Source of the DNA: a virus
Length of the DNA stretch: 44,792 nucleotides
IMG/VR virus record: IMGVR_UViG_3300021425_000060
Span: 1 to 44,792 of that record
Strand: one strand, 5' to 3'
Position numbers and translations under genes: made by a program. The notes beneath the pieces are model-generated. The model ran no database searches. It saw nothing but the letters and a program-made list of their open reading frames with translations, and was not told where the DNA came from. Of the stretch, positions 157 through 40,123 are shown piece after piece (within the stretch, counting starts at the first letter, position 1; each line of letters opens with the position of its first letter).

Positions 157-396
157 TTACTCGTTAAAAATTGGCTCGTCGCCGCCGATGTCATAAAGCT
201 CGGCTTTCTCGGGCTCCGGCTCATCTTTCCAAACGACGCCAATGACATAATCCGAATTAAGGACGATTTTTGCCTCGTCGTCTTCAAGATGGATTGTGAT
301 ATTATTTTCGTTCCAGCTCCAGTTGACTACATCGTAATAGACAAGGGGAGATAAATATCCCGCACCAGGGTGCATATTTATTGTTAAAGCTTTCAT
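157..396 (-). CDS. Hypothetical acidic protein, 79 aa
   Basis: A 79-residue acidic soluble protein that I do not recognise. It has no signal peptide or membrane segment; the C-terminal third is rich in Asp and Glu (EPEPEKAELYDIGGDEP). The start at 396 is supported by a perfect GGAGG about 8 bases upstream. A near-consensus promoter lies directly upstream (429-458), so this is probably the first gene of a transcript that continues into the membrane protein at 1-154. The pattern of alternating polar and hydrophobic residues in the first half suggests a small beta-rich fold. Function unknown. Confidence 0.65.
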   Translation of the reverse strand: MKALTINMHPGAGYLSPLVYYDVVNWSWNENNITIHLEDDEAKIVLNSDYVIGVVWKDEPEPEKAELYDIGGDEPIFNE

Positions 397-428
397 AAGA
401 AACGCCTCCGTAGTTATTATTTTACCGG

Positions 429-458
429 ATACTATGCGAGACTATGCGATGTTGTCAA
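429..458 (-). promoter_or_regulatory. Sigma70-like promoter with operator in the spacer
   Basis: On the minus strand a perfect -35 box TTGACA (453-458) is followed by an 18-base spacer and TAGTAT (429-434) as -10. The spacer holds two direct copies of TATGCGA (433-439 and 443-449) spaced exactly 10 bases, so a bound protein would occlude RNA polymerase. The same motif recurs at 1218-1245 and 2409-2435. The promoter should drive the gene at 157-396 and those beyond it. The boxes and repeats are seen directly; repression is inferred. Confidence 0.7.
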
Positions 459-1889: not shown

Positions 1890-2082
1890 GTCGTCTTCTC
1901 TCTTCTAAACAGACAAAGCCCCAGTTCTTAGGCTCGTCTTCCTCGCCTAGCCCTGGTCCCAAGTCATAATAATCAACGAAGCTTTGGCAGCTCGCCTCGT
2001 TTGGATGCCAGCTCAACGTCGCCGTTCTCACTTCCCCGCTTGAGGCTAACACCACCAAAACTAAGAGGAAGACCGATTCCAT
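1882..2082 (-). CDS. Secreted small protein, 66 aa
   Basis: Residues 1-17 (FLLVLVVLASSGEV) form a signal-peptide-like hydrophobic segment without a lipobox. The mature part is short and acidic with two cysteines (ASCQSF and FVCLE) that could form a disulfide in the periplasm, and it ends in a run of arginines. The ATG overlaps the preceding stop as TAATG. A secreted phage protein in the early region may act on the host envelope, for example in exclusion of other phages, but this is inference from the signal peptide and position only. Confidence 0.55.
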   Translation of the reverse strand: MESVFLLVLVVLASSGEVRTATLSWHPNEASCQSFVDYYDLGPGLGEEDEPKNWGFVCLEERRRRV

Positions 2083-2240
2083 TATTCTAAGCTTCCCGCC
2101 TTATTGATCTGGTCTATCCAAATCTTATCGCAATAGTCGCAGACACTTTCTTTTGGATCTTTTCTTTTACACTTGCAAAAAGGGCACAGTCCGGCGTCTA
2201 CAAGCTCTTGAAGGCTACCATCCCCTTCTTCAATCGGCAT
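2082..2240 (-). CDS. Zinc-ribbon protein, 52 aa
   Basis: A 52-residue protein with two CxxC knuckles, CPFC (about residues 19-22) and CDYC (about 34-37), spaced like a small zinc ribbon. The ATG at 2240 is chosen because AGGA lies just upstream and because it overlaps the end of the ribbon-helix-helix gene by 11 bases, giving a coupled pair. The longer open frame would run through that gene. Zinc ribbons of this size usually bind nucleic acid or a protein partner. Its location directly behind a DNA-binding regulator suggests a role in transcription or as a co-factor of that regulator, which is inference. Confidence 0.6.
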   Translation of the reverse strand: MPIEEGDGSLQELVDAGLCPFCKCKRKDPKESVCDYCDKIWIDQINKAGSLE

Positions 2241-2382
2241 TTCCTGCACTCTTCTCTTTATACCACTCGAAAACAACGCGTAGCTGACCACCAAGGGTGC
2301 GGCCTTCAGTTTTCGACATTTCTTTTATTTCCTCATACACTTCACGGGGCACGAGAATGCTTTTCCAGCGGGTCGTATCCAT
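2230..2382 (-). CDS. Ribbon-helix-helix (Arc/CopG-type) DNA-binding protein, 50 aa
   Basis: A 50-residue frame starting at ATG 2382. An N-terminal beta strand (RWKSILVPREV) is followed by helix A (EVYEEIKEMSKTEG) and helix B (GGQLRVVFEWYKEK), the fold of the Arc/MetJ/CopG repressors. The strand residues Arg, Lys and Ser would contact the DNA major groove, and the protein should act as a dimer. It is first in a minus-strand unit (regulator, zinc ribbon, secreted protein, membrane protein, methylase). Three 10-base tandem repeats at 2409-2435 lie 27 bases upstream over a TATAAT box, so autoregulation is likely. Assignment is from the pattern; the operator link is inference. Confidence 0.65.
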   Translation of the reverse strand: MDTTRWKSILVPREVYEEIKEMSKTEGRTLGGQLRVVFEWYKEKSAGNAD

Positions 2383-2408
2383 TAAATTCTCCAGAATACA
2401 CGGTTATG

Positions 2409-2435
2409 TGTGCGATATTATACGAGAATATACGA
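2409..2435 (-). promoter_or_regulatory. Triple tandem operator over a TATAAT promoter
   Basis: Three direct copies of a 7-base core (TGTGCGA at 2409, TATACGA at 2419, TATACGA at 2429) repeat with exact 10-base spacing, one helical turn. On the minus strand a perfect TATAAT box (2417-2422) lies inside the array, ahead of the ribbon-helix-helix gene at 2382. A good -35 box is missing (nearest is TCCTTG or TTGCTT). Phased tandem half-sites are the usual target of ribbon-helix-helix proteins. Confidence 0.6.
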
Positions 2436-2472
2436 AAAGCAAGGAAAAACCGAGTCGTTGGACCGTGAACCG

Positions 2473-2536: not shown

Positions 2537-2845
2537 GTGATACGGACCCATACGGACGGAAAACTTTGTGAATTGATCCTCGAAGAATGGCTTTTCGAGC
2601 GGGGTTATTGGGTGATGAAACCAACGGCGGAGCCGTGCCCTGCTGATTTCGTTGCCATATCTCCGTCAGGGGATATTTTTTTGCTTGATAGTAAGAAAGA
2701 CAACCGGCGCGTCCTAAAAGGACGAAACCAACCTACCCGTATTTATCGCAAGCTTAACGATATACAAAAGAGGTTGGGCGTAAGGATGGCTTACGTTGAC
2801 TTGGAGACAAGAGAAGTTAACATTGTTCCCAAGATTCCCGACTAA
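2537..2845 (+). CDS. PD-(D/E)XK family nuclease, small
   Basis: The frame is open further upstream, but a promoter at 2473-2501 and a GGAA ahead of the GTG at 2537 favour a 102-residue product. It shows a conserved nuclease core: Glu12 in the first helix (GKLCELILEEW), Asp37 in PADFVAI, and Asp51-Ser-Lys53 in FLLDSKK, followed by a basic segment (RRVLKGRNQPTRIYRK). This fits the PD-(D/E)XK fold used by junction resolvases, VRR-NUC proteins and some restriction enzymes. A role in resolving replication intermediates or degrading host DNA is plausible. It is divergent from the regulator gene and overlaps the DNA polymerase stop by 4 bases, converging. Confidence 0.65.
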   Translation: MIRTHTDGKLCELILEEWLFERGYWVMKPTAEPCPADFVAISPSGDIFLLDSKKDNRRVLKGRNQPTRIYRKLNDIQKRLGVRMAYVDLETREVNIVPKIPD

Positions 2846-9070: not shown

Positions 9071-9654
9071 TATTTTTTTCCTTTCTTAATAACTGCACGT
9101 TGCCCAACCCACGCTCCAAAAAGCTCCATAGGAAACTCGTCGCCTTCCTCGACGCGCTCTTTGACAAAGGCACGTAAGGTCTGCGGGTGAATTTCTGTCT
9201 TTTGCTCTGGACCGTAACCCTGTTGCTGCGCAAAGGCAGCGAAGGAACTAGCTTGATCGTCTTCGCCACGACCAAACTGACACAAGACAGTATTCTTGAT
9301 AATGTCATCGTATCCGTGGTCACGAAGCCAATCATAAGCTTGTGGTCGGTTTTGTACGAGGATAGACGCCCCATACGTTTGCTTGACCTCGATCTGGGAA
9401 CCATCATCAAGGCTAAAGGAAGATATGCCCATCTCCGCAAGCATTGCAGGCATATCCTCATCCGTGAGCTTTAGAAGCGCCTTCTTCTCAGCTTTGAGTT
9501 CGTCCTCTAAACTAGAAATGTGGTTTTCCTTGTCTCGGATTTGGCGAGCCAGCCCGGCTACCGAAGTAAGCCCCTGCTGGTCAATTTTTTCGACCGATGT
9601 TGCAAGGGTCTCTTCAAAGTCTTGCTCCATCAACTGTGCGAGGTTATCGCTCAT
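9070..9654 (-). CDS. Conserved phage replication-region protein (DUF7173-like)
   Basis: A 194-residue protein with an N-terminal coiled coil (about residues 35-65, DKENHISSLEDELKAEKKAL) and a conserved C-terminal part with HPQTLRAFVKERVEEG and FGRGEDDQA. This arrangement is widespread in tailed phages next to single-strand binding and polymerase genes; I recall it as DUF7173 but am not certain of the number. Function is unknown; a role as a recombination or replication accessory is suggested by its neighbours. It is the first gene of the minus-strand replication operon, and its stop shares one base with the ATG of the SSB-like gene. Confidence 0.65.
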   Translation of the reverse strand: MSDNLAQLMEQDFEETLATSVEKIDQQGLTSVAGLARQIRDKENHISSLEDELKAEKKALLKLTDEDMPAMLAEMGISSFSLDDGSQIEVKQTYGASILVQNRPQAYDWLRDHGYDDIIKNTVLCQFGRGEDDQASSFAAFAQQQGYGPEQKTEIHPQTLRAFVKERVEEGDEFPMELFGAWVGQRAVIKKGKK

Positions 9655-16097: not shown

Positions 16098-19000
16098 TTA
16101 CCTCCTAAACAACCCAGGTATTCCGCTAGTATCTCCTTGGATGGCTTGCAACCGAAGTTGTTGAGTTGAAGGGAAACTTTGGTTTGAACCTTGGTTCATT
16201 TGATAAGGACGAAATTGAGGGAACAAGTTAGAGGGAAGCTCAAATTCTTCGATGGTTTGAGGTTCTGTAGTCACATCTTCCGGTTCTTTTGTTACTACCC
16301 CTTCTTCAACTTCCTCTGGTTCAACCGGGTTCAATCTTTGTAGAGTAGAAGTCAAGGGAACACCTGAAGTCAATATCGCCTGGTCAGATTCAACATTTCT
16401 GATAACCGTATCGCTGTCGAGAAACTTATCATATATTGCAACGGCTGCCGTAGTCTCTGCAATAAGTTTAGTTAAGTCTGATTTCAAGGACCGTGCTTCG
16501 GTAACTTGTTCTTGCGTATATCCTGTAGGATCGCCCAACACAGTTTCAACTTTTTCTAAAGAAGATGCAAGAGCGTTACGTGTAGTTACAATGGCGTCTC
16601 TCGCACCACGGTCTGTTTTTAAAGGTCCGGGGCGGAAACCGTCTACTTCGGCACCCAACAACTCAGCATCTAATGCAAAAATTCTGCCCTCTGTTCCAGA
16701 ACGAATTACTCGCATAATTTCGTTAGCAAGACGTTCTAGTTGAGTGTCAGTTTTTGACGTTATCTCGCCCTCTTCTCCACCATAATCTCCTGTCAACTGA
16801 CCGGCTAATTGGTTGAAGAAACGATTGACGCCAGATTGCCAATCCTGAGACTTGGTGAGATCTTCACCTTGTATAATAAAAGTCGGTTGACCTTCAAATT
16901 CAGAAAAGTCGATTTTTCCGCTCTCGTCAAACCTGACGCGGGGACTTGTTACCCCTGTTTCAATCGTAACGGTTGCCGGCGGTCTACGGACTGTAAACCC
17001 TTCATCTGGATCTTCTCCAACCCTCGACGGAGTTGGAGGCAGGGTTTGATCTGGGGAAACTCCAGGAACCGCCAAGCCCAAAGACTGTCGTTGAGAAATA
17101 GCTTCTAAGACATCTGGACCTAACTGTTGCCCCGGCACCGTTACAAACCTACCGTCTGCCTGACTCCATGCCGTTGTAGGTTGGGTTAAGCTAGATATTA
17201 GGTTGGTGAGTAACAAAGCTTCGTTAGGATCTCTTTGATCAAGCGCACCGGAGGCGTAATCCTTTAATCTATCCGCGTCGGAAAGATACGTCATTGTTAG
17301 GCCTTTGAAGCTTCCACCTAAAATTTCTTCGGCTTCGGCAACATCACCTTCGGTAAGCTTTGAAAGTTGTTCTAAGCTGGGGTTGGATACAGGAATAAAC
17401 TCAGCTCCAAGAGCGGCGCGCTCTTCTCTCCCCTCTTCAGTAGACAAATCTATTACTTTTAGCTCTGCGGGATCTGTCGTGCTTGCGAAAACTTGAAGAT
17501 CAACTTTTGGCGGCTCTTTTGACTTCGTAGCCTCCATCCAAGCAGAGGTAGTAAATTGAACATAGCCTTCGCTAGTAAGCTCTGCCGCTCTAGCACGACC
17601 GGCATCTGTTGAAAGATCTATACTTTCATAAGTATCAATGTCGTTCGGGCTGGCAAACAACGCATAGTTAGGTGCTTCCTGACTTTCTGCGGTCGCCGCC
17701 CCGCCAATAGCCAAGTTAGAATCTTGAACGGCTGCTTCGTACTCAGGAGTTCCAGGGATGTATGATTCCATACGACGCGTGGTATAGTTGTAAAAGTTAA
17801 CAGCCGCTTTTGGCTCATCGCCTAACCCGGTAAGTTTCACGTAATCAGCCATAGTGCCTGGCATCACGCCAGCAGGCAACGCAGCAAGTTTCTCAGCGGC
17901 ATCTGGAGCAGACAAATCAATACGAGTAATCGTTTCTTGCGGGTTAGCCGGATCAAAGAACACTTTGATATTAGGGGCGTCTGGATCATCTCCCAGACCC
18001 GTAAGGTCGATGTATTGTTCCAAAGTGCCCGGGAGTACATTGGGGGCAAGGTTAGCTAATTTTTGCCGGCCCTCTGGAGTAGAGGTGTCAATGCTTATAA
18101 GAGTCTCAGTCGGGTTCTGTGGATCAAAGAAAATCTCAATACTAGGCGCGCCTGGGGTTATAAGGCGTTGGTGCTGATCTGGAGTAAATTCACCATACCC
18201 TTGAGCCGCAAGAGCCTCTGCTTCCAAGAGCTGAGCTGGATTGGAAAGATTTAAAATTTTGTAGGTAGTTGGGTCCTCTAGGTCTGCAAATACTTTAAAG
18301 TTAGGCGCGGCATCTGCACGAGCTTCGCTAACCGTAAAGTTACCCACCCCAAAGGTGTCTTGTAACGCCCTAAAGTTACCTACAGTCAGGGGCGCTTGGT
18401 ATGTTCTTGTGAGGGGGTTTCCATCGTCATCAAAGAGAGGCTGACCTGACTCACCTAACTCGGGGATAGTTATGTCATATATTTTACCTAGAGCTGCCCC
18501 GGCTGCGGCGGCTTCGGCTGCGGCGGCGTCTCTCTCGGCCTGTGCTTCGGCTGCGGCAAGTGCCGCTGCCCGCTCTTGCTCTGTTTGATACAAGCTCTCT
18601 GCCCGCTGTAATGCGGTCAAATCAAGCTGTCTTTGTTGATCACGCTGCGATTGCTTAAATTGGCCGAACTCACCAGCACGAGCGCCGATGTTACCCAAAA
18701 CAGGCGTAAAGGCTTGTGCCAAACGTGAGGCAGGGCTCATGGTCCGTTCGCCGGGAGTGGCAAACATTAAACCACCTTGCGCAATATCAAACAAAATTTG
18801 CGCCTGCGTTAGCTTGCGTTGCTCTGCTAAATCCGCTGCTTGCTGGTCCGTTCCGAAGATCTGACCATATAGAGCCCGTTGTTGGTCAAAAAGCTCTTGT
18901 TGCCGTGGAGTAGGCATGGCGACGCCGCCCGATTGCATATGCTGAACCGCGCCGCCTTGACTAAAATTTACGGGAGCTGGACCTCCTTGATCCGCCATGT

Positions 19001-40093: not shown

Positions 40094-40123
40094 CCTAGCA
40101 TAACTTGTATAAGATAAGCTAGG
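40094..40123 (-). promoter_or_regulatory. Near-palindromic hairpin between lysis and capsid modules
   Basis: In the 76-base gap before the capsid module a near-perfect palindrome has 13-base arms with two mismatches and a 4-base loop (outer CCTAGC / GCTAGG). No T run follows on the minus strand, so it is not an obvious terminator. A TTGTCC (minus strand) overlaps its upstream arm, which could belong to a promoter. It may be an RNase processing site, an operator or an attenuator. I saw no clear -10 box. Confidence 0.45.

Follow-up and report, generated by a model that had tools for sequence, protein, structure and literature searches.

A Putative Ribbon-Helix-Helix Repressor and Its Helically Phased Operators in a Phage Group Related to Pelagiphages

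We infer from sequence comparison that a 50-aa ribbon-helix-helix (RHH) protein, encoded in a 44.8-kb virus record (the whole stretch analyzed, here called the window), is probably an autoregulated repressor that binds at several promoters on three units phased by one helical turn. Its own promoter would be shut off and, probably, several others with it, including the promoter of the terminase (DNA-packaging) gene. An earlier note on this DNA had described the operator of the RHH gene only. The presence of similar phased sites at other promoters suggests a regulon in addition to autoregulation.

Results and Discussion

The RHH Protein and Its Partner Gene

The features of the window and the classes of phased sites are collected in Table 1. 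The RHH gene begins at an ATG that a GGAG-type ribosome site precedes. The Pfam profile RHH_5 matched 21 of 21 aligned members of the family with a best E-value of 1.4e-4. The window protein itself gave an E-value of 9e-4 and 19.4 bits, which is under the 26-bit Pfam cut-off. The Arc family profile (PF03869) matched one of the 21 members weakly (E 0.076) and does not support membership in that family. The AF2 model of the 50-aa protein (mean pLDDT 85.5) showed a strand-helix-helix order with elements E3-6, E9-12, H13-26 and H30-48. In a Foldseek search against the PDB, the top matches were CdbA, Arc, CopG and AmrZ, and the list consisted mostly of RHH proteins. The TM-scores were about 0.5-0.65, the E-values 0.2-0.6 and the probabilities 0.7-0.97; none of these matches is statistically strong, because the chain is so short. 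A phmmer search against the PDB returned Arc entries only, weakly, which makes Arc the best PDB sequence match. The turn ahead of helix B reads EGRT or EGRS (Gly plus a Ser/Thr/Asn-type residue, an RHH feature), and G27 and R28 are invariant across the main and divergent homolog sets. Taken together, the profile, the predicted structure, the Foldseek matches and the Arc match convincingly assign the protein to the RHH (MetJ/Arc) superfamily. The description of the gene as Arc/CopG-type in the earlier note is thus borne out.

The RHH gene is overlapped at its 3′ end by an ORF with a CxxC-N-CxxC pattern, probably its operon partner. Among 46 distinct downstream sequences of the main clade, 30 have such an ORF behind the gene. 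Two small overlapping genes with the RHH gene first, together with the many antitoxins that are RHH proteins, would fit a toxin-antitoxin pair that is autoregulated as such. We consider this almost certainly wrong: the partner is found in only 3 of 57 divergent downstream sequences, where the RHH gene and operator stay, it showed no resemblance to toxins in the searches run, and sites at several unrelated promoters would not be expected of an antitoxin.

On the opposite strand, an ORF at 2537-2845 (+) lies between polA and the RHH gene and is divergent from the RHH promoter. By eye it resembles a small PD-(D/E)XK nuclease; its PHROG matches are weak and of unknown function. In HTVC023P, an annotated endonuclease gene adjoins polA.

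Table 1. Candidate regulatory features of the window and classes of phased sites
Feature	Position	Strand	Description
RHH regulator gene	2230..2382	-	50 aa, MDTTRWKSILVPREVYEEIKEMSKTEGRTLGGQLRVVFEWYKEKSAGNAD
Overlapping downstream gene	2082..2240	-	small CxxC...CxxC zinc-ribbon-like protein; ORF overlap
Putative operator, three 10-bp-phased units	2408..2435	-	unit-matrix score 27.6; conserved in relatives
Operator units	2435-2428; 2425-2418; 2415-2408	-	TCGTATAT; TCGTATAA; TCGCACAC
RHH-gene promoter (predicted)	2415..2442	-	TTGCTT 2442-2437, 16 bp, TAATAT 2420-2415; operator covers it
Second putative operator	422..449	-	TCGCATAG, TCGCATAG, TCCGGTAA, 10-bp phased; score 21.6
Promoter overlapped by second operator (predicted)	429..458	-	TTGACA, 18 bp, TAGTAT (or 16 bp, CATAGT)
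Target ORF	157..396	-	79 aa, MKALTINMHPGAGYLS...; 26 nt 3′ of second operator
Class A site			before RHH gene
Class B site			early operon beside likely terminase small subunit; TTGAT lead
Class C site			TTGACAACA-TCGCATA..., 23-34 nt before AlpA-like HTH gene (Phage_AlpA/HTH_17)
Class D site			about 50 nt before 396/397-aa gene; units on strand opposite to transcription
Class E site			TTAACTG-TCTTATAT-tt-GCGGTTAA-aa-TCGCATAT; 67-89 nt before terminase large subunit

Operator and Promoter of the RHH Gene

On the + strand, the three units are TGTGCGA (2409-2415), TATACGA (2419-2425) and TATACGA (2429-2435), at steps of exactly 10 bp, as the earlier note had reported. In the direction of transcription they read TCGTATA, TCGTATA and TCGCACA, within an upstream sequence TTGCTT-TT-CGTATATTC-TCGTATAATA-TCGCACACAT... 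that leaves 25 nt between the operator end and the ATG. The pattern TATACGA-N3-TATACGA occurs once in the window without mismatches. With up to 3 mismatches it occurs 7 times against 2.2 expected, and none of 100 shuffles reached 7.

The TATAAT box noted under the repeats was confirmed; it lies within unit 2 (- strand, 2422-2417) and overlaps TAATAT. The only -35-like element, TTGCTT, stands 14 bp from TATAAT and 16 bp from TAATAT, and from this distance TAATAT is the likelier -10. An Rfam scan of the window gave no match.

Conservation of the Gene with Its Operator

Relatives of the RHH protein were found in 246 viral stretches. The best 80 of these (76-91% identity, 31 distinct upstream sequences) formed the close set, and a phased site lies near the ATG in 80 of 80, while the DNA farther upstream is largely unrelated. 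The 31 distinct upstream sequences share invariant T/C and A/T columns every 10 bp, together with near-invariant TTGC and TATAWTAT. Divergent homologs, 53-71% identical, were gathered via sister phages and gave 45 distinct upstream sequences. In these, the best phased site had a median score of 14.3, controls drawn from the same loci one of -6.0, and 28 of the 45 exceeded the 99th percentile of the controls, which themselves include true sites. In the low-scoring ones (matrix 2-8), phased TCNTATA-like units are visible by eye. The gene-operator pair that the earlier note proposed to look for in related phages was therefore recovered, and relatives that keep the gene and lose the repeats were not seen among the 80 close homologs and 45 divergent upstream sequences, down to about 53% identity; these upstream sequences come from related phages and are not independent samples.

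More remote RHH-like ORFs were detected by profile in HTVC023P (gp13), HTVC027P (gp21) and 023Pt_psg01; HTVC023P and HTVC027P showed no clear sites by this matrix. A tblastn search with the RHH protein found no homologs in cultured phages, and 84,980 cellular genomes held no RHH homolog at this identity save one weak partial match. At the sequence level, the coupling of gene and site is thus demonstrated for a part of the phage lineage.

Phased Sites at Other Promoters

A 39-column matrix of the autoregulatory site found the RHH promoter only, and the reading of a single site was abandoned when a phased matrix revealed more. This matrix has an 8-column unit in three copies at a 10-bp pitch and was used at a threshold of at least 14 bits. 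It detected 42 sites in ten long records versus 1 in the reversed sequences at the same threshold. Twelve further records were scanned with it, and a relative genome holds roughly 3-9 sites. Most lie 23-89 nt ahead of a gene start, where starts are simple ORF choices in possibly incomplete records. The sites fall into classes A to E (Table 1). The middle unit of class E, GCGGTTAA, is degenerate, and some sites of the regulon match weakly; those of classes D and E are weaker and may be bound in a different mode. Class E was read from relatives, because the family's terminase large gene was not found in the window.

The phasing was also seen without the matrix. In 19 phage records that carry a homolog, same-strand distances between TC[GCT][CT]ATA words were 10 (42 cases), 20 (12) and 30 (4); no other distance was seen more than once, and the reversed sequences gave none at 10. 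This bears on the idea that the repeats are just a host-polymerase promoter consensus, made of repeated -10-like TATA elements, with no regulator involved. The units are indeed A+T rich and -10-like, but a promoter consensus would account neither for the strict 10/20/30 bp spacing nor for the information outside the hexamers, which lies in the TC of every unit, nor for a third unit downstream of the -10. Reversed units at one promoter class and co-occurrence with one protein family also argue against it, and we regard it as very improbable.

In an IMG/VR scan of 2.9 million viral contigs, TCGCATA-NNA-TCGCATAG was found in 63 stretches, about three quarters of which belong to this phage group, as judged by an identical site context or by homology to its RHH, polA, AlpA-like or terminase sequences. 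Several candidates were rejected. A matrix match inside polA of two records (G002 and G006) lies in coding sequence and is probably due to chance, and contigs with TCGCATAG..CATCGCATAGCGATA (L107, L113, L114 and others) have no third unit and no homology to the RHH phages.

Two other observations concern single records. A strong triple site, TCGCATAC-TCGCATAC-TCGCATAG, lies at 9164-9191 of a 36-kb virus record (L116/G024), in which no homolog of the RHH protein was found, nor any match to the terminase, polymerase or AlpA-like protein of the family. In G003, a promoter with its site, built of TTCTATAT units, recurs in four nearly identical copies (4019, 5711, 6275 and 6999); they stand before different small genes and are followed by a hairpin-like sequence of the AGCAGCGGGCAATTGCTGCT type.

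The Second Site of the Window

In relatives, the type of site represented by the second operator precedes an AlpA-like operon. The target ORF at 157-396 resembles by eye the G001 ORF 17069-17302 (MKALTVNMHSASGQ...), which belongs to an AlpA-led operon behind a class C site. The AlpA-like gene was not found in the window or in sister clades, where the RHH gene and the sites persist. It is absent from G010, G013, G015, G016, G022 and G028, all six of which have the RHH gene; matrix-scoring sites are kept in the first five and not in G028. The window thus appears to have retained the operator and the operon and lost the first gene.

These losses matter for the question of which protein reads the sites. 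The RHH protein could regulate its own gene only, the other phased sites being read by the AlpA-like regulator or by a host protein. The sites at the RHH promoter do form a subtype, with a TTTCTTGC lead and a TCYTATA middle unit, several other sites favor TCGCATA, and most main-clade records encode an AlpA-like HTH protein with a site at its own promoter. But all sites share a common unit, the 10-bp pitch and the three-copy layout, and the persistence of sites where the AlpA-like gene is gone argues against the AlpA-like protein as their reader. A division of this kind is rather unlikely in our judgment, and the RHH protein is preferred as the reader of the whole set.

Proposed Mechanism

According to the proposed mechanism, the RHH protein would dimerize and bind a short unit of consensus TC-N-Y-A-T-A. 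Three units at a 10-bp pitch would let three adjacent dimers occupy a single DNA face in the stretch that separates the -35 element from the start site, where they would cover the -10 and exclude the host RNA polymerase. Cooperative binding to multiple sites is known for RHH dimers (PMC5569661); those of RelB occupy one DNA face and cooperate in a spacing-dependent manner (PMC2812701). At its own promoter the protein would exert negative feedback. Its further fixed targets would be the AlpA-like/small-gene operon, the early operon, the 396-aa gene and the terminase gene. As the level of the protein shifts in infection, promoters with operators of differing quality might switch at different times. 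This scheme predicts binding, the stoichiometry of the dimers and their cooperativity, and it likewise predicts autoregulation, timing and an effect that represses and does not activate.

Repression by occlusion is favored by the position of the units on host-type promoters, where they overlie the spacer, the -10 and the region of the start, and viral RHH regulators that repress by promoter coverage are already known (PMC5569661). The phased units might instead recruit or position the host RNA polymerase at middle or late promoters, with the RHH protein as an activator. Poor -35 elements at several promoters (TTGC..., TTAACT) would suit such a role, and the viral RHH protein AvtR stimulates or represses depending on its concentration (PMC5569661). 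Activation nevertheless seems quite unlikely, since units over the -10 and start region normally occlude the polymerase and some sites belong to near-consensus promoters, e.g., TTGACA-18-TAGTAT in the window.

Comparison with Known Regulators

Arc of phage P22 is also a tailed-phage RHH repressor of similar length, and it is among the best fold matches. It acts at one promoter pair through a palindromic operator, which differs from the multi-promoter layout proposed here. CopG of pLS1 is a 45-aa autoregulator whose dimers line one DNA face over its own promoter in a similar way, but it serves plasmid copy control at one target with a pseudo-symmetric element.

By analogy, the mode of action would most resemble that of F55 (PMC5569661) and Reg of p576 (PMC8708921). 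F55 of SSV1 is a 6.3-kDa viral RHH repressor that acts on tandem direct repeats at its own and several viral promoters (PMC5569661). Both traits, tandem sites at the own promoter and sites at others, have counterparts here. F55 differs in being a lysogeny regulator of an archaeal virus with two repeats of ATAGATAG, whereas the RHH phages have three 10-bp units at bacterial promoters, that of the terminase included, with no integrase found in nine long records. Reg, of the clade II pLS20-family plasmids, is an RHH repressor of its own and several early promoters with repeated operators; it belongs to a Bacillus conjugative plasmid, and its operators flank the promoter instead of crossing it as triple phased units (PMC8708921). 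SvtR of SIRV1 and AvtR of AFV6, both RHH proteins of viruses, repress their own genes and bind other viral sites, in the case of SvtR including a structural-gene promoter. Unlike the proteins described here, they bind imperfect inverted repeats; SvtR occupies a distal position and is proposed to oligomerize toward the promoter, and AvtR is a two-domain monomer (PMC5569661). RelB differs as an antitoxin with a co-repressor toxin and four 6-bp repeats (PMC2812701).

The Phage Group

The window encodes PolA, a UvrD-type helicase, an archaeo-eukaryotic-type primase, an SNF2 helicase and a DnaA-C protein. The nearest cultured relatives, at 48-63% identity, are the Pelagibacter phages HTVC027P and HTVC023P, phage 023Pt_psg01 and phage DSL-LC04; the polymerase and, from a sister contig, the terminase were compared. 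By this sequence comparison the group, a widespread one of uncultured aquatic phages, is related to HTVC023P-type pelagiphages. We found no report of this regulator in pelagiphages in the open-access literature.

The earlier note had proposed a self-regulating phage switch. Self-regulation agrees with the conserved site at the own promoter, but a switch in the lysis-lysogeny sense is not supported: the Phage_integrase family had no match in nine long, possibly incomplete records, and the 84,980 cellular genomes gave only the one weak partial match to the RHH protein. ParB_N, the ParB family, also had no member in the nine long records.

In many relatives an exact bacterial parS centromere, TGTTTCACGTGAAACA, occurs once in the genome and precedes the terminase large gene by no more than about 200 nt (G001:11371, G004:7172, G005:5193, G008:1772, G012:51520, G013:55546, G014:6391, G015:48031, G017:30229, G018:11713 and G028:8629, as well as L165 and others). 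It is exact in 35 of 73 terminase upstream sequences, and the phages may recruit the host ParB. Directly before the terminase large ATG, most relatives have a short G/C palindrome, AGGGGCCCC or a close variant (G001, G004, G012, G013, G015, G016, G017 and G018), possibly a packaging or cleavage site. A conserved intergenic dyad with perfect arms, CCTAGC-N18-GCTAGG around ATAACTTGTATAAGATAA, is found at 40094-40123 of the window, G001:2873 and G012:45752. It folds strongly (z -4), has TCGCATA words close by in relatives, and is a candidate recombination (Xer/dif-like) site or terminator. Another intergenic element of the window, at 1220-1253, is an inverted repeat TATGCGAT...ATCGCATA that contains TCGCATAT and resembles part of the class E site.

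Significance

In the cultured HTVC027P, whose early genes all lack a known function, transcription is temporal and dependent on the host RNA polymerase (PMC12753301). A broader reading, which we hold tentatively at somewhat less than even chances, is that a regulator of about 50-70 aa, among the smallest viral masters, runs the temporal program of a large aquatic phage group from triple operators, phased by one turn, at about five conserved promoters that range from its own to that of the terminase, with the host RNA polymerase only, and that the HTVC023P-type pelagiphages belong to this widely distributed group or are adjacent to it. A regulator that is conserved and has readable operators would offer a testable handle on gene timing in such phages, and its target operons would become readable from metagenomic contigs. 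In so compact an RHH/operator pair, the rules of spacing and unit sequence could be measured over dozens of natural variants.
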